Below, piece by piece: positions 39,233 through 58,834 of a stretch of 64,000 nt of DNA. Source of the DNA: Paenisporosarcina antarctica (GTDB lineage Bacteria; Bacillota; Bacilli; Bacillales_A; Planococcaceae); contig NZ_CP038015.1 in the NCBI RefSeq assembly GCF_004367585.1, positions 2,610,001 to 2,674,000 on the forward strand. Reading direction: 5' to 3'. A program made the translations under genes and the position numbers. The number at the start of each line of letters is the position of its first letter. The first letter of the stretch is position 1. Below the pieces are notes generated by a model. It was not told where the DNA came from. It worked only from the letters and a program-made list of their open reading frames with translations, and did no database searches.

Positions 39233-39296
39233 TTCTTTGTGCCTTCACATTTTTCAGTGATGTGCAGACCAGAAGTGCCATGCACCCATTGATAAA

Positions 39297-39809
39297 TCAT
39301 GTAGGTTCGAAAATTTCTACTATCCGGTCCGCCCTTATACGATTATGACACAGCTTGTATATTTGATCCAAAAAGGTTTCAGTGTTTAAAATTGAAGTGG
39401 GAAGTGGAATTGTCATCGTAGTAGTGCCAAAGGTTTGCTTAAAATATGATTTCCTAATGTAATTTTTTCCATCCCTTTTTAAAGGGTTGTATTTCCACGA
39501 AAGTAAGGTGGCACCATCTTCGTCTATTGTCCGGTTTAACTCGGCAATGGTTGTTGATTTATCATGCGCATAAATGACTAAATAATAGTTGTCATTTCGG
39601 TGCCAATCGATGAATAAGAAAAAATAGGAATCTTGTCCAAGTTTAGCTACTTCAAAGGCAGATATAATTGGTTTTCCATTCGCCCATTGATGGAATTGCG
39701 TTAAGGTATCATTGAATGTGTCTAATTTATTCAATTCATAGGTTGTAGAAGTAGACTCATTCCAGCGTTCTAAATAATTACTTACCATCATAGCCTGCTT
39801 TTTCTCCAA
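39297..39809 (-). CDS. Unknown 170-residue protein (intact copy)
   Basis: TTG 39809 with GGGAG eight bases upstream. Soluble alpha/beta protein: ISAFEVAKLGQDSYFFLFID, WHRNDNYYLVIYAHDKSTT, LNRTIDEDGATLLSWKYNPL and FGTTTMTIPLPTSILNTETF. I do not recognise a family. A near-identical copy at 54019-54530 carries a frameshift. Immunity-type or phage-encoded small proteins often look like this, but nothing proves that here. Confidence 0.65.
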   Translation of the reverse strand: MEKKQAMMVSNYLERWNESTSTTYELNKLDTFNDTLTQFHQWANGKPIISAFEVAKLGQDSYFFLFIDWHRNDNYYLVIYAHDKSTTIAELNRTIDEDGATLLSWKYNPLKRDGKNYIRKSYFKQTFGTTTMTIPLPTSILNTETFLDQIYKLCHNRIRADRIVEIFEPT

Positions 39810-40508
39810 GTTAGCATCTCCCTATTTTTTACTTGTTACTGAATAAATCAGTAATACCTGATTCTTAGTAACTTAATTTTATCATAGAGAGGTAAGTACA
39901 TAGGCTTTCCACTCGGCAAGAATCCGTAAAAACAACTCAAATGAACTCTGTAGGATATCACCATAAATCGTGCATATCATCGCAGTATATACAAACTTAG
40001 CAGAATCACTCGCCACAGTACTGACTTGCTTTTCCTTCTTCTGAATATAATTAATTACTGAGTACCATTGTTATCAGCTCCTCCTATTTGGTGGGGGTGG
40101 GTATCGGAAGTTCTGTGATTGGTGATTGAAAACAATGGTTTTACGTTTTAACTATGCCATCTATCTATTTAGCCTAATAGGTACCCGAATACCCACGTGG
40201 TGAATACTCAAGCATGGTTAAAGTTACGCACATGAAGGTTCTATGATTTTGGTTTACTAGATTGGTACAACACTCTATCATAAGTATCGCCGAAAACGCT
40301 TGCCGTTCGTAGCTAACTTTAAAATATCTCTCCACGTTCTTTAAATGAAGGATTCCAAACACTATAAAAGCTTGATACTTTTCCCTGGATGCGAATTTTT
40401 TAATTAATTCGTTCATTAATAACAGAAAGTTCTTACATTTACGAGTGGAATATATTATGATAAAAAGAGACATGTAAGAGTACATGTGACAAAGGAGCGA
40501 ATTGATAT

Positions 40509-40790
40509 ATGAGATTTAATGTTCATGTAATAATGGGGTTAAATGATGATTCAGTTGGACTTGCATACAAGTTAAAAGAAAATTACAAAGTTGTTTATAT
40601 TTGTGATGACACCGTTGAGGTACTAGAAAAACGTGAAGACTTTACCTATGTCCACGAAGACTTTATCCATGCTATGGACCCTCTAGTTACTAAGGTTATT
40701 GTTTATGAACCACCCTATAAAACTGGCAAGATAGTTAATAAATCAAGATCGTTTGTTATGGAGAGGAAGAGTCCTGTTGAAGAGGATTAA
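40509..40790 (+). CDS. 93-residue protein of a locally amplified family, copy 1
   Basis: ATG 40509 follows AAAGGAG by nine bases. The protein starts MRFNVHVIMGLNDDSVGLAY, continues KVVYICDDTVEVLEKREDFT and ends with a conserved YEPPYKTGKIVNKSRSF block and an acidic-basic tail. It looks like a single small alpha/beta domain without membrane segments; family unknown to me. Five whole or broken copies lie between 40.5 and 61.8 kb. All intact copies share a leader with two ACATGT palindromes (40470-40492) and the same terminator, so each is a self-contained unit. Confidence 0.75.
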   Translation: MRFNVHVIMGLNDDSVGLAYKLKENYKVVYICDDTVEVLEKREDFTYVHEDFIHAMDPLVTKVIVYEPPYKTGKIVNKSRSFVMERKSPVEED

Positions 40791-40810
40791 GCTTTAGGGA
40801 TTACGAATGA

Positions 40811-40848
40811 AAAAGCAGCTGAGATTGTATTTTCGGCTGCTTTTTTTG
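40811..40848 (+). terminator. Terminator of 93-residue gene, copy 1
   Basis: AAAAGCAGCTGAGA and TTTCGGCTGCTTTTTTT form the hairpin; the same terminator follows the other family copies. Confidence 0.85.
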
Positions 40849-40974
40849 CGTTTAGAATTAATAAAAATGATAGGATTTTCTTTCAAAATCCTATTCAGGA
40901 AGAATACATAAACGGCGGCAGATCAAACTCTGGCGAAAGATTTTCAATAAGATTTACCACTGTATCGGCTCTGG

Positions 40975-41414: not shown

Positions 41415-42110
41415 TTAAAGGTGAAGGTCTAATTCTCTAATTTCACCAGTGCTTACCAATAACTGAAGCTTATTTCTTCCAATTAACTTAACTCCTACTT
41501 TGCTTGCTAATGTAACAGCTTGATTGGTAAATTCAGTTGTTGTAATAACATACGCTTCAGTACAGTCATAATATGGCATTCCAGTATAAACTTCTTGGAT
41601 AGCCTTATTCCCTAATTTACTATCTTGGCTGTACCTCTTAACTTGTACTGCTATTCTTCTATTATGTTTTATTAATATTAAGTCAACTCCCTGATCTCCA
41701 CTGAGTGCCGTAAGTTCAACCATATAATCTCTTTTTTGAAAAAATTCCTTTAAGTAATATTCAAATTCTATTCCACTCATTTTATCTAGTTCTACCATCA
41801 AAGTATCAATATTTGGTGTTTGCCACTCTTTTTTTATTGAGTGAATTTCCTTTTTTAAATAGTTTCCTTGTATATAGGTATAACATTGAAGACAGTATTC
41901 TGAATTGTCACTCGTCTGATTAATAACAATCTCCCTAATACAACTAAATGTTTTACAGACTTTATTCTTATTTTTTCTTTTTATTTGGCTTTCACCTCTA
42001 TGTCTATTACTGAATTGATAACATTGATTACAGTATTCTTTACTTGGGCTATTAACTAAAGGGAGAAAATTACGAACGCATCCATGATTTTTACATCTTT
42101 CCAATCTCAT
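41415..42110 (-). CDS. Mrr-type restriction endonuclease with two zinc-finger-like repeats
   Basis: 231 residues. The C-terminal domain (about 105-225) is Mrr_cat: MSGIEFEYYLKEFFQKRDYM, TALSGDQGVDLILIKHNRR, AVQVKRYSQDSKLGNKAIQE, with PD-(D/E)xK residues D143 and Q156-x-K158. The N-terminal 90 residues have two similar Cys sets, C6-C11-C27-C30 and C52-C57-C73-C76, likely two zinc knuckles for DNA reading. Such enzymes cut modified or foreign DNA. ATG 42110 precedes MRLERCKNHGC. No methylase is nearby, which fits a modification-dependent enzyme. It lies inside the block bracketed by the 1.66-kb direct repeats. Confidence 0.87.
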   Translation of the reverse strand: MRLERCKNHGCVRNFLPLVNSPSKEYCNQCYQFSNRHRGESQIKRKNKNKVCKTFSCIREIVINQTSDNSEYCLQCYTYIQGNYLKKEIHSIKKEWQTPNIDTLMVELDKMSGIEFEYYLKEFFQKRDYMVELTALSGDQGVDLILIKHNRRIAVQVKRYSQDSKLGNKAIQEVYTGMPYYDCTEAYVITTTEFTNQAVTLASKVGVKLIGRNKLQLLVSTGEIRELDLHL

Positions 42111-43592: not shown

Positions 43593-44003
43593 TTAGTGTT
43601 TCACTATGAATTCCCGCAAGTCTTGGCATATATTCTGAATGGCATCGTCCCCTTTGTAATTTTGATGAATAGGTAATTCAACCACATACTCTTCAAATTT
43701 TTTAGAGGTCATCTTTAGGGTCAATCCATGAAGATCTAAATACGTTAAAAACACATATGCAGCTGTTTTCTGATTCCCGGTACTAAATATATGATCAGTA
43801 GATATAGCATGTAAGTACACACATGCTTTTTCAACAATGCTTGGAAATTGTTCTAGTCCCAATAATTTCGTTCGAGGTCTTTCTAACATCGAGTAAAAGC
43901 TGCCTTGAAATTTTACTCCAGCATTGTTTGAATCATGGGTTTCAGACATGACATATTCATGTAGCATGAGTATGTCATGCGTCTTTAGTATATATGCTTC
44001 CAT
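43593..44003 (-). CDS. Doc/Fic-fold toxin with altered active site
   Basis: 136 residues; ATG 44003 follows AAGGAG by six bases. Doc features are LKTHDILMLHEYVMSETHDS at the N-terminus, VEKACVYLHAISTDHIFSTG and NQKTAAYVFLTYLDLHGL. The Fic motif H-x-F-x-(D/E)-G-N-(K)-R is HIFSTGNQKT: His, Phe, Gly and Asn remain, while the Asp/Glu is Thr and the Arg is Lys. Doc phosphorylates EF-Tu; whether this variant is active is uncertain. The upstream gene, ten bases away, encodes an AbrB-type protein, the presumed antitoxin. The pair lies at the 3' side of the lasso cluster. Confidence 0.82.
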   Translation of the reverse strand: MEAYILKTHDILMLHEYVMSETHDSNNAGVKFQGSFYSMLERPRTKLLGLEQFPSIVEKACVYLHAISTDHIFSTGNQKTAAYVFLTYLDLHGLTLKMTSKKFEEYVVELPIHQNYKGDDAIQNICQDLREFIVKH

Positions 44004-44013
44004 TCGATTCTCC

Positions 44014-44268
44014 TTAACGGTCTTTAAGATTCTCAAACATGGTGGTGTATTTATTCATCACTCTGTCCATCGATTTCAATAAATTTGGATTCATATCCAT
44101 ATTCATCACTTTTTTCATCATAATTCCATCTGTTTCTTTATTTAAAGTGAGCTGCAAATCATCGCCTTTTTGCAAATTCAATCTCACAGCCAAATCTTTC
44201 GGTATGCCAACGGATAAACTATACCCCATCTGATTTACTTTACGAAAAAATTGCTGATTGTCTTCCAT
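44014..44268 (-). CDS. AbrB/MazE-type antitoxin
   Basis: About 84 residues from ATG 44268 (an alternative ATG at 44292 gives 92). The N-terminal half is a SpoVT-AbrB domain: FFRKVNQMGYSLSVGIPKDL and AVRLNLQKGDDLQLTLNKET. The C-terminal part, rich in Met and charged residues, would bind and mask the toxin. Its position directly before the Doc-like gene gives a type II toxin-antitoxin operon that the antitoxin would auto-repress. Confidence 0.82.
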   Translation of the reverse strand: MEDNQQFFRKVNQMGYSLSVGIPKDLAVRLNLQKGDDLQLTLNKETDGIMMKKVMNMDMNPNLLKSMDRVMNKYTTMFENLKDR

Positions 44269-44540
44269 TGTTTCACACTCATTTCCTAGCATTTCTTATT
44301 TGAATTGGGATTGGTGCCATACTGACTATTTCGTTTCTCAACTATTTATACAAAAGACACCACCCATTAGGCTTGCATCAGAGTGGTGATGGCTTTAAGT
44401 TTATGCACTTGTAACGATAACTTTGTTTCTCCTCCCAGTGGTCGACACTACACTCACTATAAATAACGAAATATTGCGTAAATTCACTACATAATAACTA
44501 CCTTTCTCATCAACTATAAGGCACTGGTTAAAAGAGCAAC

Positions 44541-46337
44541 TCATATACTCGACTTTAGTTGGTTACCTAGTAGATTGCTAAACATTCCTTTTTTATCTCT
44601 CGCTAGCTTGTTGTAGCCACCAACTTGAATAATTTGTCCTCGATCCATTACCAATACTTGATCTGCATTACGGATAGTGGATAAGCGATGGGCAATGACA
44701 ATAATGGTCATGGTCCCCTTTAGTTTTTCTATGGCTTTTTGAATCTTCACTTCGTTTTCTGTGTCTAATGCACTGGTTGCCTCATCTAGGACAAGAATCG
44801 ACGGTTTACGTAAGATGGCTCGAGCTAGTACAAGTCGTTGTCTTTCGCCCCCTGAAAGTCGAATGCCTCGATCACCAATGAGTGTATCTAGACCTTCCGG
44901 TAACAGTTTGACAAAGTCCGCCGCCGCAAACTCCAATGCCTCGAAAAGGGATGCGTCGCTAGCTTCAGGGTCCAAAATCTTCAAATTTTCACGTATCGTT
45001 GTATTAAACAAAAATGGATCCTGTGGGATATAACTAATGGATTTTCTGAGTGACAGTAAGTGTTCTCGTTTAAGTGGGATATGATCAATCGTGACCTCAC
45101 CCAGATCTGGTTTATTTAAACCCGTTAAAATATCAATTAACGTACTTTTTCCAGCACCTGATCGACCTACGATAGCAGTCATGCGGTTAGCTGGTATATG
45201 TACTGTTATATTTTCAAGTGCGTACGTATCTTCATTTTGCTTGTATTTAAAAAAGACATTATGACAACTGATACCAGATGTAATTTGGATAGCTTTACTA
45301 GTCTGAATATCTGTATCATTTATCTCTTTTGCTTCTATACATTCATTCTGTAAATCTATTAATGCTTTAAACGATGGGAGTGTGGCTCCTAGTTGCTCTA
45401 ACATAGATTGTATACTTGTAAATCTCGGCCATAACCTTGAAAAAATCACCATGATCAACATTAATTGTGCTGGCTGCGACATGAACATCTTAATGGATAA
45501 AAATACGAAAACCGCAATTAATAAAGCAGAGACCACTTTGAAGATCATTTGAGAAGTTATATTAACAGTAGTCAGTTTAATCCTGTTTTGTTCCATTTTT
45601 TCACTTAAGGAGAAAAACCAGTTCATGTGGGATTCTTCTAATGAATTACTTTTGATATCCTTCATTCCGTTAAAGTGATCCGTCATTCCCGCCATGTATG
45701 TTTGTGATAACTCATAGGATTCCTTTCCGAAAGACTGAGACTTATTAATGAATTTTCTTGAAAAGATGATGAGAATTAATCCGAAAAATAAGATAAAACT
45801 TGTCAATTTGTAGGATAAATAAAAGGCTACCCCTATTTGAATCAAGGTAAATATAATAGAAGATAAAAACTGTAAAAATAAATTAATGCCAGCGCTCACA
45901 TGAAACGTTTCGTTTGACATGATATTGATGATATCTGATTTCCTCTTTTTAAGATAAAATCCCCAATTTGCATGTAGCAAACTTTTATACGTATCATCTC
46001 TTAAATGTCGAATAAAACCTTGCTGGATTTTTACACCTAAAATGGATTGTTGGCGTTTAAAAATACTTTGTCCCACCATCAAAAGTACATATATACCCAA
46101 AATGATGATGAGACTCATTGTCTCAGGAATGCCTATGAATAAGTCAGTAATCCAACGGAGAATCGGAATTTCCGTTGTACTAAAGTCTATAATTCCAGTG
46201 ATGCTGATCAATGGAATTAACAAGAAAATACTAGCACTCTCTAAAAAACCGATTAACATCATGCAAATGAGATTAATATAAAGAATTTTCCCTGAATACT
46301 CATGTATGCGTTTTAAAAAGTGTAAGAGATGCTTCAA
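44541..46337 (-). CDS. Lasso-peptide ABC exporter (type D), fused permease-ATPase
   Basis: 598 residues. Six membrane helices in the first 320 residues are followed by an ABC ATPase with Walker A GRSGAGKST, signature LSGGERQRLVLARA, Walker B SILVLDEATSALD and H-loop IVIAHRLST. There is no N-terminal peptidase domain, as expected where a separate B2 protein removes the leader. It exports the mature lasso peptides and gives self-protection. TTG 46337 is the start, with AGGAGG eight bases upstream. It is the last gene of the lasso operon, separated from the peptidase gene by 283 bases, so it may have additional expression control. Confidence 0.9.
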   Translation of the reverse strand: MKHLLHFLKRIHEYSGKILYINLICMMLIGFLESASIFLLIPLISITGIIDFSTTEIPILRWITDLFIGIPETMSLIIILGIYVLLMVGQSIFKRQQSILGVKIQQGFIRHLRDDTYKSLLHANWGFYLKKRKSDIINIMSNETFHVSAGINLFLQFLSSIIFTLIQIGVAFYLSYKLTSFILFFGLILIIFSRKFINKSQSFGKESYELSQTYMAGMTDHFNGMKDIKSNSLEESHMNWFFSLSEKMEQNRIKLTTVNITSQMIFKVVSALLIAVFVFLSIKMFMSQPAQLMLIMVIFSRLWPRFTSIQSMLEQLGATLPSFKALIDLQNECIEAKEINDTDIQTSKAIQITSGISCHNVFFKYKQNEDTYALENITVHIPANRMTAIVGRSGAGKSTLIDILTGLNKPDLGEVTIDHIPLKREHLLSLRKSISYIPQDPFLFNTTIRENLKILDPEASDASLFEALEFAAADFVKLLPEGLDTLIGDRGIRLSGGERQRLVLARAILRKPSILVLDEATSALDTENEVKIQKAIEKLKGTMTIIVIAHRLSTIRNADQVLVMDRGQIIQVGGYNKLARDKKGMFSNLLGNQLKSSI

Positions 46338-46620
46338 AACCCGATCCTCCTATCCCAGTGCTACTTCCTTTTTGTCCCCTATGACTGGACTATCCACATA
46401 TATGTGGTGAAGAAAAGGTATCGACATCTACAAAAATGGGATACCTGGTACTAACATATTTGACATAAGAGAATACGAATAATGGGGTTGTTGATGCGTA
46501 GATAATCTTGAGGGTAGGGTCCATTACTATATTCAATTCGAAATGGGCATACGTAAAATCGTACATTGCTTGAATATTACAAGAATAAATCACAAAATAC
46601 AGGTAGACTTCTTACAACTT
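46338..46620. other. Gap between lasso peptidase and exporter genes
   Basis: 283 bases. A 67-codon minus-strand frame (46390-46593) starts with GTG and has no ribosome site, so I do not call it. No terminator is evident. It may hold an internal promoter. Confidence 0.35.
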
Positions 46621-47100
46621 CTAAAGACTTTCTTCCTCTAGGGACTGTAAGTTAGATGCTTTCGCAAATTTAGCCACAACCGTGAATCTTTCCATCACTT
46701 CAGCACCGGAGATATAATAGGGCCCACTACGTAACCACGCATGTGCAATTAAATCTCCTTTTTCATCTTTAGCCGTACCTAGATAGAGAGTACTGTCAAT
46801 GTTTCGTTTCTCCAACATGTTCATACCAGCAATGGCCTTTACCAGACACTGACTTTCCCAAAAAGTATAGCCACTCATTAGTTGAATGGCTCTAGATACA
46901 CTTGCTAAATCCTCTTTACTCGATGGAACAAGAGAATAAGAAGTCTCTTTCATCGGTACGCCAAGGGTTGAGGCCACCTTTGAAAATGGGATGCTCTTGA
47001 GATACCGGGCACGACCTAACTGAATAAACGCCTCAACAAGTAGAAACTTTGTTTTCCTATTTACCTTCGAAAAAGCTCGAGCCTTTTTGATCATCTTCAT
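46621..47100 (-). CDS. Lasso leader peptidase B2 (transglutaminase-like)
   Basis: 159 residues of the Transglut_core3 family (lasso B2). Catalytic Cys is in YTFWESQCLVKAIAG (C85) and His in KGDLIAHAWLRSGPYYI (H120), with acidic partner in the same segment. The enzyme cuts the precursor after the conserved leader end (Thr-Met) so that the cyclase can close the ring. ATG 47100 follows AGGAGG by six bases; the gene begins 30 bases after the B1 gene. Confidence 0.9.
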   Translation of the reverse strand: MKMIKKARAFSKVNRKTKFLLVEAFIQLGRARYLKSIPFSKVASTLGVPMKETSYSLVPSSKEDLASVSRAIQLMSGYTFWESQCLVKAIAGMNMLEKRNIDSTLYLGTAKDEKGDLIAHAWLRSGPYYISGAEVMERFTVVAKFAKASNLQSLEEESL

Positions 47101-47130
47101 TATTGCCTCCTAGAGGTTTATCGGTTGAAA

Positions 47131-47436
47131 CTAGGCATCGACTTTATCTTCGATCGTAATTAAGCCATCCTTTTTCAATTTACTTAAAAAGTCAGTGACT
47201 TGTTCCTCACATTCCGTTTGATCCACTTCATATTGAGATCGTAAGGTTTCAACTAATTGTTGAAAAGTAAGCGGTTCCTTTATGAGGTCCCAAATCGCTC
47301 CACCCAATTCGCCTAAGTTATAATACTTCCCATTGTGAACACTTAACATCACTTTATCTCCATCCATATCACTTACGATGTTTCCAGGACTTTGACTATA
47401 TACATGGTTCGTTGTACTTTCTACGTTTTTATTCAT
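47131..47436 (-). CDS. Lasso RRE protein B1 (PqqD-like)
   Basis: 101 residues of the PqqD/RRE fold: VMLSVHNGKYYNLGELGGAI then WDLIKEPLTFQQLVETLRSQ and LSKLKKDGLITI. It binds the leader peptide (W-x-x-P-x-L motif here) and delivers the precursor to B2 and C. ATG 47436 overlaps the 3' end of the kinase gene by eight bases, so the two are translationally coupled. Confidence 0.9.
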   Translation of the reverse strand: MNKNVESTTNHVYSQSPGNIVSDMDGDKVMLSVHNGKYYNLGELGGAIWDLIKEPLTFQQLVETLRSQYEVDQTECEEQVTDFLSKLKKDGLITIEDKVDA

Positions 47437-48364
47437 CTTTTCCCTCCGTTGCTATTGTAGTTAATATGAGATCCACTAATTCATGAGCTGAAAAACGTGA
47501 GACTGGTCTACGTAATTGATAAAAACCAATTTTATTGATCATTTTACTAGAATGAGTAAAATGCCAGTCCATTACTCCAGAACGCTCGATAAAAAAATTA
47601 CGATACGTATTGGTATACAACGTATAAAATCTTTGGAGATTTTGAATAGGTTGAAGATTGATCTCATCATTGTCTCCCTTGATCAATTCAAACACACCAG
47701 CAAGTGGGAGTGGTTCGGTAACAAACTGAGATGGAACAGGAACAGCGAATTTATCTTCTCTAACAAAGAGTGGTTTATAATTTGTTGATTCCATATTAAA
47801 GTGGTGTAAGCTTTCCATCCATAATTTCTGTTGCGGATATGAAGGAGTTACCATGGGTACATTATCACTAGTAAGGGATACGGGTATGACATCATCACTC
47901 AAGAGTTTATAGCCTCTTGTTAAAAATGCAGAAGCAAGAGTAGACTTCCCAGCTCCAGAATCACCAACAATGGCATATGCCTTTCCATCTATGGCTATCG
48001 CACTTCCATGTATGGGAAGGATTTTTCTTTGCATTAATATGGCACCCATACAGGTCCCAAGGATAAAAAGTCGAATTTCATCTTCATCCGCCCCTTTATA
48101 AGGTGAAACTAAGATTTCGCTACCATATTGAATCAAAAATATGGCAGTTTCAGATATATGAAACATAATCCAGTCTTTCTTAATGACAAAATCATCATCG
48201 TCAATTGAATGCTCTGACCATAAACTAGTCAGATCAGCTTTTTCAATTACAATATCTATTCCAACATCCTCTGTGTTGATAGTAGGAATCTCTGGTAGAG
48301 GAAATTCACTTGTAATAGTTAACCCGAATGCTTTGTAAATCGGCTTTTTTTCAACAGTGAGCAT
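47429..48364 (-). CDS. HPr-kinase-like lasso precursor kinase
   Basis: 311 residues. The C-terminal HprK-type domain has P-loop AIVGDSGAGKSTLASAFL (134-142), PIHGSAIAIDGK before it and SDDVIPVS after it. Homologues in paeninodin-type clusters phosphorylate the C-terminal serine of the precursor. All three precursors here end in serine, which fits. ATG 48364 follows AAGGAGA. A 215-base gap to the third precursor holds a weak CCCCTA/TAGGGG hairpin (48453-48481) that may lower downstream expression relative to the precursors. Confidence 0.9.
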   Translation of the reverse strand: MLTVEKKPIYKAFGLTITSEFPLPEIPTINTEDVGIDIVIEKADLTSLWSEHSIDDDDFVIKKDWIMFHISETAIFLIQYGSEILVSPYKGADEDEIRLFILGTCMGAILMQRKILPIHGSAIAIDGKAYAIVGDSGAGKSTLASAFLTRGYKLLSDDVIPVSLTSDNVPMVTPSYPQQKLWMESLHHFNMESTNYKPLFVREDKFAVPVPSQFVTEPLPLAGVFELIKGDNDEINLQPIQNLQRFYTLYTNTYRNFFIERSGVMDWHFTHSSKMINKIGFYQLRRPVSRFSAHELVDLILTTIATEGKDE

Positions 48365-48578
48365 GGTAATAGTCTCCTTTATTAAAAAATGATCTGAAGT
48401 AACAACAAAGTCAGGGATAAGATAATTGCACTAAATGGTCAATATATAAAGACCCCTAAAAATAGCAAATATTGATAGGGGCTAAATTCAATAATCTCAC
48501 GAGCTACAAGGGTTCATATGTACGAATCCAAGCAGAGTTTTTGCATAGAACAGAACCACACGCTAATTATTCTTTCTT

Positions 48579-48713
48579 TTAGCTGCCCATTGGCTCTTTT
48601 TTAGACTTATTATTATCATGAAAAGCTGAATCTGAGAATTCACCATTAACCCCAAACATTGTCATATTTACATCAAGAACTTCTAGTTCGGGTTTCTTCC
48701 ATTCTTTTTTCAT
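48579..48713 (-). CDS. Lasso peptide precursor A3 (distinct core)
   Basis: 44 residues from ATG 48713 with GAGAGGAAG upstream. The 19-residue leader MKKEWKKPELEVLDVNMTM has the W-x-x-P-x-L RRE motif and Thr at -2. The 25-residue core begins FGVNGEFSD, so ring closure between Phe1 and Asp9 is expected (9-membered), and ends KKEPMGS with C-terminal Ser. The tail is longer and more charged (AFHDNNKSKK) than that of A1 and A2. A different conformation or activity is likely. The upstream DNA (about 48721-48835) is a decayed copy of the cyclase gene 3' end. Confidence 0.9.
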   Translation of the reverse strand: MKKEWKKPELEVLDVNMTMFGVNGEFSDSAFHDNNKSKKEPMGS

Positions 48714-48869
48714 CGTATTCACTTCCTCTCATTTAAACTGTTTTAAAATAACTAAATGATTAACCTACCTATTAAAAACTAATAATCAGTATACGTGGCA
48801 CCACTTGGCTTTGGTCCCTGCTAAACCTTTTTTTGTGAGAACACAATTAAACGCGAATGACTCTTTCTT

Positions 48870-49001
48870 TTAACTAGAAGTTATCTTACCTACAGGCGTG
48901 TTAGCAGGAAAAGATGCATCTGTGTGCTCACCACCAAAATTTAGCATTGTCATATTTACATCGAGAACTTCTAGTTCAGGTTTCTTCCATTGTTTTTTCA
49001 T
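48870..49001 (-). CDS. Lasso peptide precursor A2 (core identical to A1)
   Basis: 43 residues from ATG 49001 with GAGAGGAGG upstream. Leader MKKQWKKPELEVLDVNMTM, with Thr at -2. The 24-residue core begins LNFGGEHTD (ring Leu1 to Asp9 predicted), has ASFPANTPVG in the loop and tail and ends KITSS. The DNA of the core is identical to that of A1, while the leaders differ at four positions, so a recent duplication or gene conversion is likely. Confidence 0.92.
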   Translation of the reverse strand: MKKQWKKPELEVLDVNMTMLNFGGEHTDASFPANTPVGKITSS

Positions 49002-49131
49002 CGTATTCACCTCCTCTCAATTAAACTAATTTAGAAATAAATAAATGATTGCTTACATACTAAAAGCGTATAATCACGATCAGTGACAGTCTCTTTTGGG
49101 GAACACAATTAAACGCGAGCTACTGTTTCTT

Positions 49132-49263
49132 TTAACTAGAAGTTATCTTACCTACAGGCGTGTTAGCAGGAAAAGATGCATCTGTGTGCTCACCACCAAA
49201 ATTTAGCATTGTCATATTTACATCGAGAATTACTAATTTGGGTTTCTTCCATTCTTTTTTCAT
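49132..49263 (-). CDS. Lasso peptide precursor A1
   Basis: 43 residues from ATG 49263; GAGAGGAGG starts two bases after the cyclase stop, so A1 is coupled to the cyclase gene. Leader MKKEWKKPKLVILDVNMTM; core begins LNFGGEHTD and ends with two serines, as in A2. Asp9 is the predicted ring acceptor. The core has no Cys, so the peptide is class II. Phe and Pro in SFPANTP are candidate plug residues; this is a guess. Confidence 0.93.
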   Translation of the reverse strand: MKKEWKKPKLVILDVNMTMLNFGGEHTDASFPANTPVGKITSS

Positions 49264-49278
49264 CGTATTCACCTCCTC

Positions 49279-51219
49279 TCATTTAAACTGTTTTAGAAAT
49301 CGATACACGATTAAACAACGCATTAAAAACTTATAATCAGGATCCGTGGCACACTCTGGTCTAGGTCCCAGCTCAACCTTTTGTAGTGCTGACTTTATGG
49401 CCCCACCATCTAAATATTCCAAAACTCTTTTATCGCGACTAAGTTGCTGCACTTCATCTATAAACATGTTCCATTTAGGTATCATGCGATGAACCCAATC
49501 GGCACCTTGAACACCTCGAACTCGTTGATTTAGTCTGACTTTATCAGGTAAATAATTTTCTGTTGCCCTTCGAATTAGCGCTCGATCTACTCCATTTTGT
49601 ACATATTGATTTTCAGGCACTGATAAACAGAAACGAATTAAACGAATATCATTGGTTGGATCCCGTTTCCACACTGAGTAACGTAATGACAGTTTGGCTG
49701 CAAGCGTACTGCCTGCATTCCACTGAGAGACATCTTCAAAGTGTTTTTTTCTTTGACTAAAACTATCAGAATTGGAATACGATCCAGTTTGGTCAATTCC
49801 GCATTCTCTAAATTTGGCATAAACACCCATTTTTGTTGCGAATTCAGGGTTAATTAGAGCAGGGATACTGTAAGGAATCCCCTGAGGAAAGGCTCGGTCA
49901 ATCATTGGAAACCCAATTCTTGCGATAGTAGGCAGGCTGCCTAATCTAGCCACTCCTGCATTTTCTCTATACTGATCTAATTCTTTAAAAAGTCGAACCC
50001 ATTTTAATTTCTTTAAAAGTGTCGCGTAATAGTCAAAAGCTCCCCCCCAAGATATGGTGAAATTACCTCTGTCACCATTAAGTAATATCCCTATGTCTTC
50101 CTCATGAGCTTTTTCAAACATGCCCTTTAACCAAAAGGAGTTTTCAAAAAATTTATATGGCATTTCCATAATTTCTAGAAAATCATCGATTTCTGAAAGG
50201 GAGTCTTTGCCTTCAAAATCATGGTAATGATCTGAAATACCACCAACATACTCGACAGTTGACTTAATAAAAGGTCTCTCATCTGCCAATAAGTAGGTAG
50301 GTGTAAAGTCTTTAAAATCATCGGGAGGAATATAACTAAATGTATGTAACAATTTTTTTTCTCTCTGTAGATTCTTTGCAGCAAATCCAACAACCGCTCC
50401 TGAATCCAAGCCCCCGCTGAGTTGTGACCCTACTTTTCTGTGTGTCCTTAACCGTGAAGTAACAGCTTCCTGAAAGACACTTTGAAACGCTTCGACATAT
50501 TCCCCATCTGACTTAAGTTTTAGTCTCTTTCCTTGCGTAATATATGAATATCGTTTAAGCGTCACTTTATTATTCACGATTGATATGCTATGAGAGGGAG
50601 GTACCTGTTCTATATTTTGATAAGGCGTAATTGAGGAGTCGACTCCATCAACCATTCCGGATATCGCCAAATACTCAGCTAACCATTGTTCGTTTAATTT
50701 TTTCTCTATATAAGGTAGCGCCAATAATGGATCGATTACGGTACAAAAAGCAAAGTTTTCTTGGTTCTTGTGAAAATAAAGCGTTCGACTCCCTGAAAAA
50801 TCTCTTGCCCCAAATAGCCTTTGTTGTCTCTGATCCCAAATCATGAAGGCAAAATCACCGACTAAGTGCTTCAGACATTCTTCCCCCCATTTTTGATAAC
50901 TTAGTAGAATAAGTTGACTATCAGTAAGAGCGCTTCTATCCGCTTCCTCAATAGTTAACAGGTCAAATAATTCCTGACGATTATCTATGATGGCATCAGC
51001 TGTTATCGCCAACTGTCTTTCATAATCATAAAATGGCAGCGTCTCATCCACTGATTCGGGCGTAACCCACTGGGCATGACTGCCAAGAAATACTTTAGTA
51101 TCATTCCATATTTGTCTAGAATCTGCCGGGAATTTTTCTAGATAACTCATTAAAATTGTACCGTGCTGAATTCTCACAGGATCTTTATTAAACTGGTAAA
51201 TTCCCGTAATTGCGCTCAT
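49279..51219 (-). CDS. Lasso cyclase C (asparagine-synthetase-like)
   Basis: 646 residues. The N-terminal glutaminase-like domain lacks the catalytic Cys (starts MSAITGIYQF), as in lasso cyclases. The C-terminal domain has the ATP-pyrophosphatase loop SGGLDSG (268-274) and RRATENYLPDKVRLNQRVRG. It activates the Asp9 side chain of the core as AMP ester and joins it to the freed N-terminus. ATG 51219 is chosen (GGTGGGGAAA upstream) over a longer frame to 51252. The stop is 15 bases before A1. Fragments of its 3' end recur before A2 and A3. Confidence 0.93.
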   Translation of the reverse strand: MSAITGIYQFNKDPVRIQHGTILMSYLEKFPADSRQIWNDTKVFLGSHAQWVTPESVDETLPFYDYERQLAITADAIIDNRQELFDLLTIEEADRSALTDSQLILLSYQKWGEECLKHLVGDFAFMIWDQRQQRLFGARDFSGSRTLYFHKNQENFAFCTVIDPLLALPYIEKKLNEQWLAEYLAISGMVDGVDSSITPYQNIEQVPPSHSISIVNNKVTLKRYSYITQGKRLKLKSDGEYVEAFQSVFQEAVTSRLRTHRKVGSQLSGGLDSGAVVGFAAKNLQREKKLLHTFSYIPPDDFKDFTPTYLLADERPFIKSTVEYVGGISDHYHDFEGKDSLSEIDDFLEIMEMPYKFFENSFWLKGMFEKAHEEDIGILLNGDRGNFTISWGGAFDYYATLLKKLKWVRLFKELDQYRENAGVARLGSLPTIARIGFPMIDRAFPQGIPYSIPALINPEFATKMGVYAKFRECGIDQTGSYSNSDSFSQRKKHFEDVSQWNAGSTLAAKLSLRYSVWKRDPTNDIRLIRFCLSVPENQYVQNGVDRALIRRATENYLPDKVRLNQRVRGVQGADWVHRMIPKWNMFIDEVQQLSRDKRVLEYLDGGAIKSALQKVELGPRPECATDPDYKFLMRCLIVYRFLKQFK

Positions 51220-51326
51220 TTTCCCCACCCAATCTGAAAGATTATTGACCAATAATTTATAATTAAATTTTTGTGAATTTTTGTATTAATACTTTTGATA
51301 ACCCATGTCTTATCTCTTTAAGGGGT

Positions 51327-52556
51327 TCACCTCATAAATGATGATTTTCTCCATGCCCATAAAAAGGGCCGTAAAGGAAAATATAAAAAGTATAGAGGTT
51401 TGGGTAACTTCAATAAATTTGTATCTGCAGGTTTTGGATAAAATAATTTCACAATAACAATAAACTTCTGAACATTTGACATCATTGAAAACAAACGATC
51501 TGAGAAGATTGACTTCAGAGCTGCAATTAGGAACGAAAAATGATTATTCTTATGGTCTTTTACCACTGTAATTTGAGACTGGCATTTGATTTGTAAATCA
51601 CCCATTTCAACAATATAGAATATGGCCAATTGTGCTAGCTTTCTTGAACGTTTTCCTTTTATTACTGTTTTCATTTCTTTATTGATTGGTGTTTTTAATA
51701 GCTGAGTGGTTAATATAAGTGCTTGTCCTAAATGGTGGTGGTCGTACATATTTAGGAAGTAACTAGTGTCATCACTAGAGATTCTGTTTCTTATCAATTG
51801 GTCAATATCCGCTAACCAACGAAGACGAAACCATCCATGCCTATTGCCATGAGTTATAAGAAATGAAAATAAATCTTCTTTTCCCAAAAAGTAGACTGGA
51901 TAACTTGTTAGCTTACTAACCCTCTTTCTTTCCCATAATTCATTAAAGCTATGTTCAATATTAGGAAAAGGATGGAGTCTCCAATGAATTTCAATCTGTA
52001 TCCTTTTTTGAGGATGAAAATAACTTACATGATGGTTCTGCCATGTCCACCCGACAAATGTATTTAATTTCCCTTCTCTCTCGTATCCACTATTTAATAG
52101 AAGTTCATCTGCTCTTATTAAATCAGTTTTAGTAATTAGGATATCTAAATCCTTGGAAGTACGCAGAGATATATCCCCGTAAATGTCTGTAGCTATGACC
52201 GGACCTTTTAAATAAATGAGCTTAATTTGATTTTCCATAAACAATTTACTGACTTGTTCCATTTCTCCACTTAAGCGAAGCATATTAAATGTGTTTTTTT
52301 TATATTCATCGCCTAATAGTTGAACAATCTTTTGAGGTATCCATATTTGTTCTTTCATTTGAATTAATTTTGTATAAATTAATGGATATAGACGATGATG
52401 AATTGCTAATTGAATAAATAACTCCCAATCAACTTCTGTAACCAATTCATTTGTGACTCTCAAATCACTATCGTCATTTTTCGTATTCATAATTGTAAGC
52501 AGTAATGTTAATTCCTTGGGGATGGTAGAGAAATCAAGATCATAATTATTATTCAT
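51327..52556 (-). CDS. Lasso-cluster nucleotidyltransferase-family protein (N)
   Basis: 409 residues of the NTP_transf_5 family. Motif: LIYLKGPVIATDIYGDISLR then TSKDLDILI (G-D-x-x-x-R-x-x-x-D-x-D). In paeninodin-type clusters such proteins accompany the kinase; for pseudomycoidin the homologue adds hexose to the phosphorylated C-terminal serine. A matching tailoring step is expected here by inference. ATG 52556 follows GGAAGGTG by six bases. It is the first gene of the operon; a TATAAT at 52667-52662 (minus strand) is a possible -10 with no convincing -35. Confidence 0.87.
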   Translation of the reverse strand: MNNNYDLDFSTIPKELTLLLTIMNTKNDDSDLRVTNELVTEVDWELFIQLAIHHRLYPLIYTKLIQMKEQIWIPQKIVQLLGDEYKKNTFNMLRLSGEMEQVSKLFMENQIKLIYLKGPVIATDIYGDISLRTSKDLDILITKTDLIRADELLLNSGYEREGKLNTFVGWTWQNHHVSYFHPQKRIQIEIHWRLHPFPNIEHSFNELWERKRVSKLTSYPVYFLGKEDLFSFLITHGNRHGWFRLRWLADIDQLIRNRISSDDTSYFLNMYDHHHLGQALILTTQLLKTPINKEMKTVIKGKRSRKLAQLAIFYIVEMGDLQIKCQSQITVVKDHKNNHFSFLIAALKSIFSDRLFSMMSNVQKFIVIVKLFYPKPADTNLLKLPKPLYFLYFPLRPFLWAWRKSSFMR

Positions 52557-53701: not shown

Positions 53702-54018
53702 CCCCGCCACCTCTTTCACTTCTTTTTTCACTCATTCTCTAACTGTTTCCGTCCCTAGCTCGCGAATTATTATGAATAAATTATTACAGAAGAGTTCTAT
53801 ACGACACCTATCCTAACAGAAACCATAGGTACCCGTTTTTTAGTAGGGGTAGGTATCGGAAGTTCTGTGATTGGTACTTCTTCTTTACACAGAAACATTG
53901 GTTTTTAACTATGCCATCCATCTATTTAACATGGTAGGAACCGATTTGAGGTCAATTCATTTGGTCACATTTTTTTCAGTGATGTTCAGACCAGAAGTGC
54001 CATGTACCCTGGGATCAA

Positions 54019-54530
54019 TCATGTAGGTTCGAAAATTTCTACTATCCGGTCCGCTCTTATTCGATTATGACAAAGCTTGTATATTTGATCCAAAAAGGTT
54101 TCAGTGTTTAAAATTGAAGTCGGAAGTGGAATTGTTATAGTAGTAGTACCAAAGGTTTGCTTAAAATATGATTTCCTAATGTCATTTTTGCCATCCCTTT
54201 TTAAAGGGTTGTATTTCCACGAAAGTAAGGTGGCACCATCTTCGTCTATTGTCCGGTTTAACTCGGCAATGGTTGTAGATTTATCATGCGCATAAATGAC
54301 TAAATAATAGTTGTCATTTCGGTGCCAATCGATGAATAAGAAAAAATAGGAATCTTGTCCAAGTTTAGCTACTTCAAAGGCAGATATGATTGGTTTTCCA
54401 TTCCCCATTGATGGAACTGAGTTAAGGTATCATTGAATGTGTCTAATTTATTCAATTCATAGGTTGTAGAAGTAGACTCATTCCAGCGTTCTAAATAATT
54501 ACTTACCATCATAGCCTGCTTTTTTTCCAA
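54019..54530 (-). pseudogene. Frameshifted second copy of the 170-residue protein gene
   Basis: TTG 54530 opens the same N-terminus as the intact copy (EKKQAMMVSNYLERWNESTS). Near 54403-54420 the DNA reads TTCCCCATTGATGGAACTGAG where the intact copy has TTCGCCCATTGATGGAATTGCG, one base fewer, so the frame is lost; the remaining 129 codons stay open in the original frame. Confidence 0.78.
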
Positions 54531-55234
54531 GTTAGCATCTCCCTATTTTTTACTTGTTACTGAATAAATCAGTAATACCTGATTCTTAGTAACTTAATTT
54601 TATCATAGAGAGGTAAGTACATAGGCTTTCCACTCGGCAAGAATCAATAAAAACAACTCAAATGACTCCTGTAGGATATCACCATAAATTGTGCATATCA
54701 TCGCTGTATATACAAACTAAGCTAAATCAATCACTCGCCACATTACTGACTTTCTTTTTCTTCTTCTGAATATAATTAATAACTGAGTAACCATTGTTAT
54801 CAGCTCCTCCTAATTGGTGGGGGTGGGTATCGGAAGTTCTGTGATTGGTGATTGAAAACAATGATTTTAGGTTTTAACTATGCCATCTATCTATTTAGCC
54901 TAATAGGTACCCGAATACTCACATGGGGAATACTCATGCTTGGTTAAAGTTACGCACATGAAGGTTCAATGATTTCGGTTTACTAGATTGGTACCACACT
55001 CTATCATAAGTATCGATGAAAACGCTTGCCGCTCGTAGCTAACTTTAAAATATCTCTCCACGTTCTTTAAATGAAGGATTCCAAACACTATAAAAGCTTG
55101 ACACTTTTCCATGGACGCGAATTTTTTAATTAATTCGTTCATTAATAACAGAAAGTTCTTACATTTATGAGTGGGATATATTATGATAAAAAGAGACATG
55201 TAAGAGTACATGTGACAAAGGAGCGAATTGATAT

Positions 55235-55516
55235 ATGAGATTTAATGTTCATGTAATAATGGGGTTAAATGATGATTCAGTTGGACTTGCATACAAGTTA
55301 AAAGAAAATTACAAAGTTGTTTATATTTGTGATGACACCGTTGAGGTACTAGAAAACCGTGAAGACTTTACCTATGTCCACGAAGACTTTATCCATGCTA
55401 TGGACCCACTCATTACTAAGGTTATTGTTTATGAACCACCCTATAAAACTGGCAAGATAGTTAATAAATCAAGATCGTTTATTATGGAGAGGAAGAGTCC
55501 TGTTGAAAAGGATTAA
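55235..55516 (+). CDS. 93-residue family protein, copy 2
   Basis: Differs from copy 1 at only four positions (for example EVLENREDFT and PLITKVIVYE). Leader with ACATGT palindromes, AAAGGAG ribosome site and terminator (55535-55572) are all kept. It is part of large direct repeat copy B. Confidence 0.75.
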   Translation: MRFNVHVIMGLNDDSVGLAYKLKENYKVVYICDDTVEVLENREDFTYVHEDFIHAMDPLITKVIVYEPPYKTGKIVNKSRSFIMERKSPVEKD

Positions 55517-55794
55517 GCTTTAGGGATACAAATGAAAAAGCAGCTGAGATTGTATTTCCAGCTGCTTTTTTTGCGTTTAGAATTAATAAAAATGAATAGG
55601 ATTTTCTTTCAAAATCCTATTCAGAAAGAATACATCAAAATTTTATTTTGTCCACCTTTTGTTCACTTTTTATACCCAAAATTAAATTTTGCCCACAAAA
55701 AAGATCCCAAATATTAATTATCTCGAGTTTGTGAAAAGTCATCTCTCTTAGAGCCACTTGCGTTCATAGGCTTTATAAAGTATGCTTTTAAAAA

Positions 55795-56374
55795 ATGAGA
55801 GTGGTGACTGACATAACTTCTTATGTATTAAGTGTGGGTTTGAATGGCATGAAAGGACAAATTATTAAAGTCGAGGCGACAGTGAGGAATGATAAGGAGC
55901 AGTGTGTCATTATCGGACTCCCTGATACCTCTATTAAGGAATCTAAAGAACGGATATTGAATTGTTTGCATGCCCTTGGCCAAGATATTGATATGAAGAA
56001 AATCACAATACACTTGTCTCCTGCCGATGTTAAGAAACAAGGTACCTCTTATGATGCCGCGATGTTACTAGCAGTACTACAGGCGATGTCTAAAAACCCT
56101 GTACCCATTTCCGACAAAACATGCATTATTGCTGCACTAACTTTGGATGGTCATTTAACTACTTTTCACAGCATGATTCCAACTATTCATCAAGCGATAT
56201 TACTTGGCTTTAAGCAAATTTATCTCCCCCCATTGAACTATCTATATTTGCACAAGCAACAGATATTGAACTGATTCCACTATCTCATATGACACACTTA
56301 CTCTCCCATTTACGAGGAAAACCCTCCCTTTTCAAAGATGAAATGATCCTTATTCCATTAGATAACTATCCCTC
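55795..56374 (+). pseudogene. YifB/ComM-type AAA+ protein gene, N-terminal remnant cut by IS21
   Basis: The first 145 codons give a ChlI/ComM N-terminal domain: DITSYVLSVGLNGMKGQIIK, ATVRNDKEQCVIIGLPDTSI, ITIHLSPADVKKQGTSYDAA. Near 56230 one base is lost in a C run and the frame changes; the restored frame reads ELSIFAQATDIELIPLSHM and LLSHLRGKPSLFKDEMI before the IS21 end at 56375. Past the IS (59006) the frame could continue as STEENDKVPHVCFSAILLH and then stops. The AAA+ domain is absent. Family members aid branch migration in transformation. Confidence 0.82.
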
Positions 56375-56535: not shown

Positions 56536-58092
56536 ATGCTTCAATATTCCAGGATTTTGAGGTTGAAGGAGGAAGGGTTTAGTCTAAGAAGTATTGCATC
56601 GAGTACCGGAAATTCAAGGCAGAAAGTGACGGAGGTGATTGAGCGTGCTGAGAAGAAACGACTGTCAGGTCCACTTGATGAGGAGATGGATGATAAGTGG
56701 CTTGAAGATTTTCTCTTTCCCGAAAAGGCACTTGAAAATTCAGGTCGACAGCCCCTGAAATTCGATTATATCCATGATGAATTGGCAAAGCCCAATGTCA
56801 CACTGACTCTCCTTCATCATGAATATGAGGCGGAATGTCGGATGAACAACAAGATTCCTTATTCATATCGAAGTTTTCTTCGTCATTACAGTAATTATGC
56901 GGCCAAGTATAAAGCTACTATGCGGATCCGTCGTAAACCAGGAGAAATCATAGAGGTCGATTGGGCTGGTTCTACGGCTTTTATCCTCGATCGCGATACG
57001 GGAGAAAAGGTGAAGGCATATGTCTTTGTGGCAACTTTACCGTGTAGCCAGTTGTCTTATGCGGAAGCCAGTCTCTCGATGAACCTGTCTTCGTGGATCA
57101 CCGCACACAACCATATGTACGAATATTTCGGTGGGACAACGCAAATCATCATACCAGATAACCTGAAGGCAAGTGTGACGAAACATACGCTACAGGAGCT
57201 CGTCTTAAACCCTACATATCGGGAGATGGCAGATCATTATAAAACCGTCGTCATGCCAGCTAGGGTGGGTGCACCTAAAGACAAGCCAAGTGTAGAGGGG
57301 GCTGTCGGTGTTATTTCCACATGGATCATCGCTGCACTTAGAAACACTCATTGTTTCAGTATTGATGAATTGAACCATGAAATTCAGAAGAAGTTAAAGG
57401 AGTTCAACAACCGGTCTTTTACAAGAAAGCATGGATCTCGGTTTTCCGCATTCGAAGAAGAGGAGAAATTTGCGCTTTCCCCCCTTCCTTCCAAATCCTA
57501 CAAAATGTCGGTCTGGAAAACAGCCAAAGTGCGACCTGACTATCATGTCTCTATTGAAAGTATGTTCTACTCTGTCCCCTATGAATATATCAACAGACAG
57601 ATAGAAATACGGATAACAGAAAATCTAATCGAGGCCTACTTCAACCATATGCGGATCGCTTCCCATAAACGATTATATGGCAAGTTCGGGCAGTTTTCTA
57701 CTAATCCTGACCACATGCCAGATAATCATCGGATCTATATCGAACAGAATCCAGAGAATGCAAAAGAATGGGCAAAAGGTATTGGAGAGAATACTTTAGC
57801 GGTGATTGGATATTTATTAGAGCATTCACAGAATGAGAAATTGGCATTGAAATCAATCTTCTCTTTGAAGAAGACTGAGCAACGCTATTCAAAATATGAG
57901 ATCGAGCGTGCCTGCAAGATGATCCTCTCTATGACGCCAAGACCGTCGGTCAAGGCTGTACAGACGCTTCTATTGAATAATAAAAAGAGTGATACGGAAC
58001 AAGAACTGAACAGGAAGATTGAAAAGAGAGAAAGCAAATATGGCTTTACACGTGGAGATGCATATTACGGGGGGAGAGATAACAATGAATGA
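56536..58092 (+). CDS. istA: IS21-family transposase IstA
   Basis: 518 residues. N-terminal helix-turn-helix (RLKEEGFSLRSIASSTGNSR), then an rve/DDE integrase core with PGEIIEVDWAGSTA (first D), IIIPDNLKASV (second D) and APKDKPSVEGAVG (E). The C-terminal part has the Mu-type beta-barrel segment VSIESMFYSVPYEYINRQIE. Full length for the family. The stop overlaps the istB start by eight bases. Confidence 0.95.
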   Translation: MLQYSRILRLKEEGFSLRSIASSTGNSRQKVTEVIERAEKKRLSGPLDEEMDDKWLEDFLFPEKALENSGRQPLKFDYIHDELAKPNVTLTLLHHEYEAECRMNNKIPYSYRSFLRHYSNYAAKYKATMRIRRKPGEIIEVDWAGSTAFILDRDTGEKVKAYVFVATLPCSQLSYAEASLSMNLSSWITAHNHMYEYFGGTTQIIIPDNLKASVTKHTLQELVLNPTYREMADHYKTVVMPARVGAPKDKPSVEGAVGVISTWIIAALRNTHCFSIDELNHEIQKKLKEFNNRSFTRKHGSRFSAFEEEEKFALSPLPSKSYKMSVWKTAKVRPDYHVSIESMFYSVPYEYINRQIEIRITENLIEAYFNHMRIASHKRLYGKFGQFSTNPDHMPDNHRIYIEQNPENAKEWAKGIGENTLAVIGYLLEHSQNEKLALKSIFSLKKTEQRYSKYEIERACKMILSMTPRPSVKAVQTLLLNNKKSDTEQELNRKIEKRESKYGFTRGDAYYGGRDNNE

Positions 58093-58834
58093 ACAGACGT
58101 TAAACAAATTACATGAGATGAAACTCAGTGCAATGGCTGAGGCTTATATTGAACAAGAAACAAATCGTGACTTTCAGAAGATGGATTTTGACGAGCGTCT
58201 TTCGTTACTTGTCGACCTTGAATATTCCCGCCGAAAAAGCAACAAGCTTCAACGTCTGATACAAGCATCTTCGTTCATCAACTCAAATGCATGTATTGAA
58301 GACATTGAATATTTCGCAGACCGTAGACTCAACAAAGAGTTGATACTCAAACTCGCGAATGGTGCTTATCTAATGGATGGACACGATATTATCTTGAAAG
58401 GACCGACAGGCTCCGGAAAGACCTATCTCGCTACAGCCTTTGGCGTATCGGCTTGTCGACAATCGTTCAAAGTGAAATACATCCGATTACCTGAACTATT
58501 GGATGAACTGACTCTGGCCAAACTCGCAGCAGATGGAAGCTATCGAAGACTCATCAAAAAATATACAAAAGTGGATCTGCTCATCTTAGATGAGTGGCTA
58601 TTAACTGAACTTTCTACCGAAGAGGCGACAATCCTATTAAAGATATCGGAATCGCGACATAAGCTGGCGTCTACCATCTACTGTTCACAGATCGATCCAA
58701 CTGGATGGCATCTTAAGTTAGGAAATGAAACAATAGCTGAAGCGATACTGGATCGGATCATACATGACTCCTATCAAATCATGATAGACGGTGAAATATC
58801 CATGCGCGAGAGACATGGTTTAGTGCAGGCGTAA
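58085..58834 (+). CDS. istB: IS21-family helper ATPase IstB
   Basis: 249 residues of the DnaC-like AAA+ family: Walker A LKGPTGSGKTYLATAFG, Walker B VDLLILDEW, and sensor region STIYCSQID. It selects target DNA and stimulates IstA. ATG 58085 has GGGGGGAGA seven bases upstream; the usual longer frame from 58019 overlaps istA too far. Confidence 0.95.
   Translation: MNEQTLNKLHEMKLSAMAEAYIEQETNRDFQKMDFDERLSLLVDLEYSRRKSNKLQRLIQASSFINSNACIEDIEYFADRRLNKELILKLANGAYLMDGHDIILKGPTGSGKTYLATAFGVSACRQSFKVKYIRLPELLDELTLAKLAADGSYRRLIKKYTKVDLLILDEWLLTELSTEEATILLKISESRHKLASTIYCSQIDPTGWHLKLGNETIAEAILDRIIHDSYQIMIDGEISMRERHGLVQA

Follow-up and report, generated by a model that had tools for sequence, protein, structure and literature searches.

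What does a lasso-peptide gene cluster make when it carries three precursor genes, and how did it come by them? We addressed this in a 64,000-nt stretch of DNA (the window; C1:2610001-2674000 of a 3.97-Mb genome in two contigs) from Paenisporosarcina antarctica, where a lasso cluster forms a single minus-strand run at window positions 44541-52556 in the order N, C, A1, A2, A3, K, B1, B2, D. We read it as a complete paeninodin/pseudomycoidin-type class II lasso-peptide cluster with a probability of about 0.9, judging from the sequence. It looks ordinary and intact for its type, with one unusual feature, a precursor gene that appears to have been copied twice. The genes, their family membership, the conserved residues of the enzymes and the footprint of the duplication can be read directly from the DNA. 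An earlier note on this locus had listed a nucleotidyltransferase, a cyclase, three precursors, a kinase, an RRE protein, a peptidase and an exporter, and each of them was found as an open gene of the minus strand at the coordinates given there, as follows:

51327-52556, minus strand: N, PF14907 nucleotidyltransferase, PsmN-like, 409 residues (Pfam, conserved columns, AlphaFold model)
49279-51219, minus strand: C, lasso macrolactam cyclase, asparagine-synthetase-like, 646 residues, ATG at 51219 (Pfam, NCBIfam, relatives)
49132-49263, minus strand: A1, precursor of 43 codons, leader MKKEWKKPKLVILDVNMTM, core LNFGGEHTDASFPANTPVGKITSS (NF033524, 42.5 bits)
49021-49094, minus strand: decayed copy of the cyclase 3' end in the A1-A2 spacer (local alignment score 63)
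48870-49001, minus strand: A2, precursor of 43 codons, leader MKKQWKKPELEVLDVNMTM, core as in A1 (NF033524, 53.8 bits)
48732-48837, minus strand: decayed copy of the cyclase 3' end in the A2-A3 spacer (local alignment score 119)
48579-48713, minus strand: A3, precursor of 44 codons, leader MKKEWKKPELEVLDVNMTM, core FGVNGEFSDSAFHDNNKSKKEPMGS (NF033524, 53.3 bits)
47429-48364, minus strand: K, HprK-like kinase (Pfam Hpr_kinase_C, conserved columns)
47131-47436, minus strand: B1, RRE (PqqD-like), predicted leader-binding protein (NF033536, PDB match)
46621-47100, minus strand: B2, leader peptidase, transglutaminase-like (NF033537, 94.1 bits)
44541-46337, minus strand: D, MsbA-like ABC exporter, TTG start after GGAGGA (Pfam, NCBIfam)

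Family assignment and integrity of the cluster

Open-reading-frame reading of the window found every cluster gene open, with no stops or frameshifts; the ATG of A1 is preceded by GAGGAGG, and the precursor lengths bear out the expectation that two would not exceed 43 codons. Pfam models matched N (NTP_transf_5, E = 4.6e-58, 197 bits), C (Asn_synthase, 2.3e-25), B1 (PqqD, 2.2e-18), B2 (Transglut_core3, 4.7e-18) and D (ABC_tran, 2.1e-32), and NCBIfam models matched B1 (lasso_PqqD_Bac, NF033536, 135.9 bits, cut-off 80), B2 (lasso_biosyn_B2, NF033537, cut-off 33) and all three precursors (lasso_PadeA_fam, NF033524, cut-off 27). A precursor, B1, B2 and an asparagine-synthetase-like cyclase occur together, which is the class II lasso gene set, and the cores carry Asp9 and lack Cys, which places them in class II; the ring sizes permitted for lasso closure through Asp or Glu are general knowledge. 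As in the paeninodin family, the leaders have a WxxPxL motif (Trp in all three) and Thr at -2, all three cores end in Ser, and the kinase has a His-Lys-Asp-Asp set, whilst the PF14907 nucleotidyltransferase is characteristic of the pseudomycoidin subtype. Family models and the relatives read support the gene roles, Thr at -2 and Asp9, in keeping with both the type proposed in the earlier note and its predicted rings, Leu1-Asp9 (A1, A2) and Phe1-Asp9 (A3).

Linear polyphosphorylated peptides (LPP) were ruled out by the WxxP rather than YxxP leaders and by the presence of a cyclase and B2; elsewhere in the genome an LPP cluster, which would have a SipW-like peptidase next to its RRE, was likewise rejected from a search for the RRE, as the single PqqD-type RRE found was the cluster's own B1. 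Between A3 and K we also rejected a terminator or attenuator, as the hairpin drawn there folds no better than shuffles (z = -0.13) and the minus-strand terminator scan lists none at that place.

A cyclase scan of genomes gave 247 encoding stretches, the best 80 of which were kept as 79 loci, and the counts of relatives given here cover these. At least one precursor was found at E < 0.001 in 78 of the 79 loci, that of L079 being recognised by eye only. Those fitting a pattern that requires Thr at -2 number 96; their core position 1 is A in 42, L in 24, N in 11, G in 8, H in 5, T in 2, W in 2, S in 1 and K in 1, and their last core residue is Ser in 94 and Cys in 2. Near-invariant columns were those conserved in at least 97% of usable homologues (79 for C, 76 for K, 74 for B1, 70 for B2 and 66 for N; rows with <75% coverage or an internal stop were dropped, and D was left out). 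The cyclase keeps 121 of its 123 such columns, the two departures being Ser47 in place of Cys and Leu116 in place of Pro, and K, B1, B2 and N show no departures: K retains H119, K140, D157 and D158, B1 Gly42, B2 C85 and H120, and N D136xD138 and E189.

By sequence search the PDB entry closest to B1 is 9x90 chain B (6.3e-31), the PbaB1-leader complex of PMC13381572, and passages of that paper describe how a WxxP-preferring RRE binds the leader, including the leader Trp and the RRE Gly42. The His-Lys-Asp-Asp motif of the HprK-like kinase and the roles of PsmN are reviewed in passages of PMC9266682, and the functions of both proteins also in passages of PMC8498205. Sequence searches of the PDB with K matched only HprK and unrelated P-loop proteins, and with N gave no match. 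The AlphaFold model of N (mean pLDDT 83.2, pTM 0.83) had as its best PDB fold matches nucleotidyltransferase-fold proteins including LnuA and ANT(2'')-Ia, with FKRP, a sugar-phosphate transferase, lower.

Three precursor genes, two predicted peptides

The array consists of three copies of a 219-nt stretch at spacings of 288 and 262 nt, and the outer copies share 91% and 61% identity with the middle one. A1 and A2 do not differ at any of the 75 nt of core and stop codon, silent sites included, whereas their leaders have 6 differences in 57 nt (p = 0.006) and their flanks (remnant and downstream sequence) 28 in 109. As the two cores are identical, the three genes encode two predicted peptides; the earlier count of three precursor genes stands, but not three different products. 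Identity at silent sites goes beyond what selection on the protein would maintain, so a recent conversion between the A1 and A2 cores is likely.

From A2, the A3 gene differs at 3 of 57 leader, 33 of 75 core and 30 of 109 flank nt, and its core shares 42 of 75 aligned nt with that of A1 and A2, with 3 gap columns. Divergence between A2 and A3 is higher in the core than in the flanks (p = 0.027); the same test on A1 and A3 gave p = 0.006, but the A1 flank includes the constrained end of the living cyclase gene, which leans the test towards this result, so that the fair comparison is that of A2 with A3. All p values here are nominal, drawn from few sites and dependent on the alignment, and a replaced A3 core would look the same in this test as a fast-evolving one. 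The predicted monoisotopic masses of the dehydrated lassos are 2428.166 Da (A1/A2) and 2710.208 Da (A3).

We infer all chemical steps of the pathway from homology. B1 would bind the WxxPxL leader and B2 would cleave after the Thr-Met pair, C would close the ring around the threaded tail by joining the side chain of Asp9 to the N-terminal amine of the first core residue (Leu1 in A1/A2, Phe1 in A3), K would phosphorylate the C-terminal Ser, N would probably put a hexose on that phosphate, and D would export the finished product, presumably a peptide secreted for competition or signalling. Hexose addition by N, drawn solely from the pseudomycoidin literature, has in our view slightly better than even odds. 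Pseudomycoidin (Bacillus pseudomycoides DSM 12442) shares the pairing of kinase and nucleotidyltransferase, a likeness taken from passages of the reviews PMC9266682 and PMC8498205, in which the two enzymes are reported to yield a phosphorylated, hexosylated lasso. Set against the description in these reviews, our cluster differs in its precursor array and cores.

Several results weigh against a complete and working cluster of this type. Against NF033535 the cyclase reaches 407 bits, under the cut-off of 525, and K falls just below the Pfam Hpr_kinase_C cut-off (31.4 bits against 33.3; 1.7e-07). The model of N has no match among PDB folds at E <= 0.001; promoter-like sites number 25 against 38 expected from shuffles, and are thus not commoner than chance; and there is no Rfam match at 38000-60000. 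Phe occurs at core position 1 in none of the relatives' 96 precursors and one of the 18 nt in the A3 ribosome-binding stretch is changed, so production of A3 could be poor, or the gene could be in decay. The shortfall of the cyclase was not counted against membership, since the cyclases of four relatives tested likewise fall under the cut-off (358-410 bits) and one of them, L117, carries a lasso cyclase annotation in the public record; for this cyclase branch the cut-off is a naming threshold, not a defining feature.

The two A3 observations, together with the lack in A3 of the ITSS- or LTFS-like tail end of its nearest relatives, favour the rival that survives best, namely that A1 and A2 are the only productive genes, A3 being a paralogue in decay with a Phe1 core that would not be cyclised. 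However, the A3 frame is open, its leader has stayed close to that of A2 whilst the adjoining remnant and downstream DNA have diverged, and its Gly2, Gly5, Glu6, Asp9, Phe12 and final Ser fit the LGxxGEYTDAAF...S pattern of near relatives. We regard a decaying A3 as less likely than not, and consider that A3 is probably processed by the enzymes of the cluster.

Origin of the array

Both spacers of the array align to the 3' end of the cyclase gene: none of 2000 shuffles reaches the score of 63 in the A1-A2 spacer (maximum 40) or of 119 in the A2-A3 spacer (maximum 39), and the cyclase 3' end scored at most 36 against 2964 stretches of 150 nt drawn at random from the window. From these decayed cyclase tails we conclude that the array expanded through tandem duplication of a unit made up of cyclase tail and precursor. 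The duplicated unit would have been ~285 nt long, consisting of the last ~110 nt of C, the ribosome-binding site, the precursor and ~35-40 nt downstream, and the cyclase part of each duplicated unit would have decayed afterwards, such that A1 and A2 would now give one peptide in duplicate and A3 a second. The sequence CAAAA is common to the C tail and the DNA after A3, near the expected junction, which may reflect recombination at a short shared sequence or chance in A-rich DNA; the 26-nt difference in spacing (262 vs. 288) fits a loss in the first spacer.

The remnants could instead be relics of duplications of a whole cyclase-precursor module (C-A-C-A), with the cyclase bodies later lost, and two consecutive C-A modules do occur in 17 of the 79 relatives. 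However, both spacers retain just the last ~75-110 nt of C, and the second modules of those relatives encode a very different core with two Cys, whilst the A3 ring fits the cluster's own type; we find whole-module duplication improbable and prefer duplication of cyclase tail plus precursor.

The second modules themselves (L011, L013, L018, L021, L024, L025, L029, L030, L032, L033, L037, L039, L044, L052, L057, L060 and L073), with cores such as NGPGNANADCFDV...SNASC, are possibly a disulfide-bearing lasso subtype in Bacillota.

Relatives, distribution and other arrays

None of the 79 nearest cyclase loci has a tandem precursor array. In a wider sample of 398 Bacilli genomes, 40 (this one included) have a paeninodin-family match at E <= 0.001, and six of the 40 have at least two precursors within 1 kb: the present genome, G303 (4), G505 (4), G545 (3), G384 (2) and G408 (2). 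The array as a unique feature is ruled out by these five other genomes with arrays of two to four; the earlier description of the type "but with a precursor array" was right that the array is present, but wrong to set the cluster apart by it. As here, the five arrays consist of paeninodin-family precursors repeated between C and K, and in G408 two identical cores follow leaders one difference apart, as in A1 and A2. Within each of the five the cores are alike or nearly so, whereas here one is clearly different, and none of their 10 spacers carries the footprint when scored against the tail of that cluster's own cyclase with the ribosome-binding site excluded (the observed scores are equalled or exceeded by 186 to 499 of 500 shuffles). 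Array formation is recurrent, and the tail footprint and distinct third core are peculiar to this cluster within the 398-genome sample.

The cyclase falls in a nine-row clade (support 96) whose internal order is not settled. Its nearest relatives are L002 (Paenibacillus sp. FJAT-29882; 74% identity over residues 1-645) and L117 (Priestia aryabhattai plasmid pB2.3; 73%), both with the gene order C-A-K-B1-B2-D, related cores (LGKNGEYTDAAFPDNFPLKDITSS and LGGSGEYTDAAFPTHTPKGDLTFES, respectively) and one precursor each; their copies of D are 73% and 76% identical to ours. N begins 2.6 kb upstream of C in L002 and was not found in the 13.2 kb of L117 examined. Of the 79 loci, 58 have N downstream of C and 9 have it upstream, as here; in the other 12 it was not found within the stretch examined. 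The L117 cluster is located on a 66-kb plasmid, and its gene annotated 'aldolase' is a kinase homologue 70% identical to K.

Compared with the cluster of paeninodin (Paenibacillus dendritiformis C454), ours differs in having three precursor genes, and the paeninodin core is unrelated in sequence to the cores here. The two share the NF033524 precursor, cyclase, B1, B2, HprK-like kinase and C-terminal Ser (passages of PMC9266682 and PMC8498205). The caulosegnins I-III of Caulobacter segnis are three lassos from three precursors and one enzyme set (passages of PMC13352647); that cluster, compared by description rather than sequence, belongs to another phylum and forms 8- and 9-residue rings.

Both cores are absent from the relatives' precursors that were read (for the class-wide searches, those of part of the loci), the best matches to A2 outside its own genome are 65% identical among 261 family genomes and 62% among the 398 class genomes, and a search of the PMC text library with 12-letter pieces of both cores found no paper containing them, all of which accords with the earlier note, which did not recognise the cores as known peptides. 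Against plasmids, searched with A3 only, the sole match was the L117 precursor (residues 1-31 of 44). Searches of the literature for tandem arrays, multiple precursors or identical cores gave no description of this array, nor is there one in the passages of PMC11705953, PMC10931772 and PMC13352647.

A paeninodin-family precursor is present in this genome and 3 of the 261 family genomes (the order-level search covered the same 261) and in none of the 8 congeners, and this patchy distribution, together with the plasmid-borne relative, suggests horizontal gain. The precursor of one same-family genome (G201, L084) is identical letter for letter to that of Sporosarcina sp. BP05 (L004). In one congener, G073, homologues of both flanks lie on one 28.5-kb contig with no DNA match to the lasso genes; a clean empty site is not claimed there, as the flank order is scrambled and partly repeated. 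That the cluster is silent or disabled and yields no product, for which the patchy distribution might speak, is very improbable against open genes throughout, conserved residues nearly all kept and A1/A2 cores identical despite diverged flanks.

Genomic surroundings

A 1.7-kb direct repeat (95.6% identical) at 39245-40912 and 53965-55638 encloses the lasso cluster, a Fic/AbrB-like pair and an Mrr-like gene, and recombination between its copies could delete the region. Directly downstream of D, at 43593-44292, are overlapping MazE/AbrB-like (16.6 bits, under the cut-off) and Fic-domain (36.9 bits) genes, possibly a toxin-antitoxin pair; the Fic protein also matches the PADLOC candidate PDC-S23 models. 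A protein with an Mrr-type restriction endonuclease domain (41418-42110; Pfam, 92 bits) resembles the nuclease end of ZorD models. An IS21-type transposase/IstB pair lies at 56536-58834, and the G073 matches to window positions 56372 and 59013 lie ~5 nt apart, so this element is absent in G073.

Possible implications for lasso-peptide diversification

The cluster contributes two lasso cores unseen among the relatives read, and its DNA still records how a precursor array came about. The leaders of A1, A2 and A3 are almost alike, so that the three genes provide a natural test of the core tolerance of one cyclase (Leu1 vs. Phe1). We tentatively suggest, as a possibility short of even odds, that the array is a snapshot of lasso diversification, in which short tandem duplication would free copies to change, conversion would hold the A1/A2 core constant in a double dose, and A3, under a constrained leader, would evolve its Phe1 core faster than the adjoining decaying DNA; the outcome would be a producer of two lasso peptides, which may act together.

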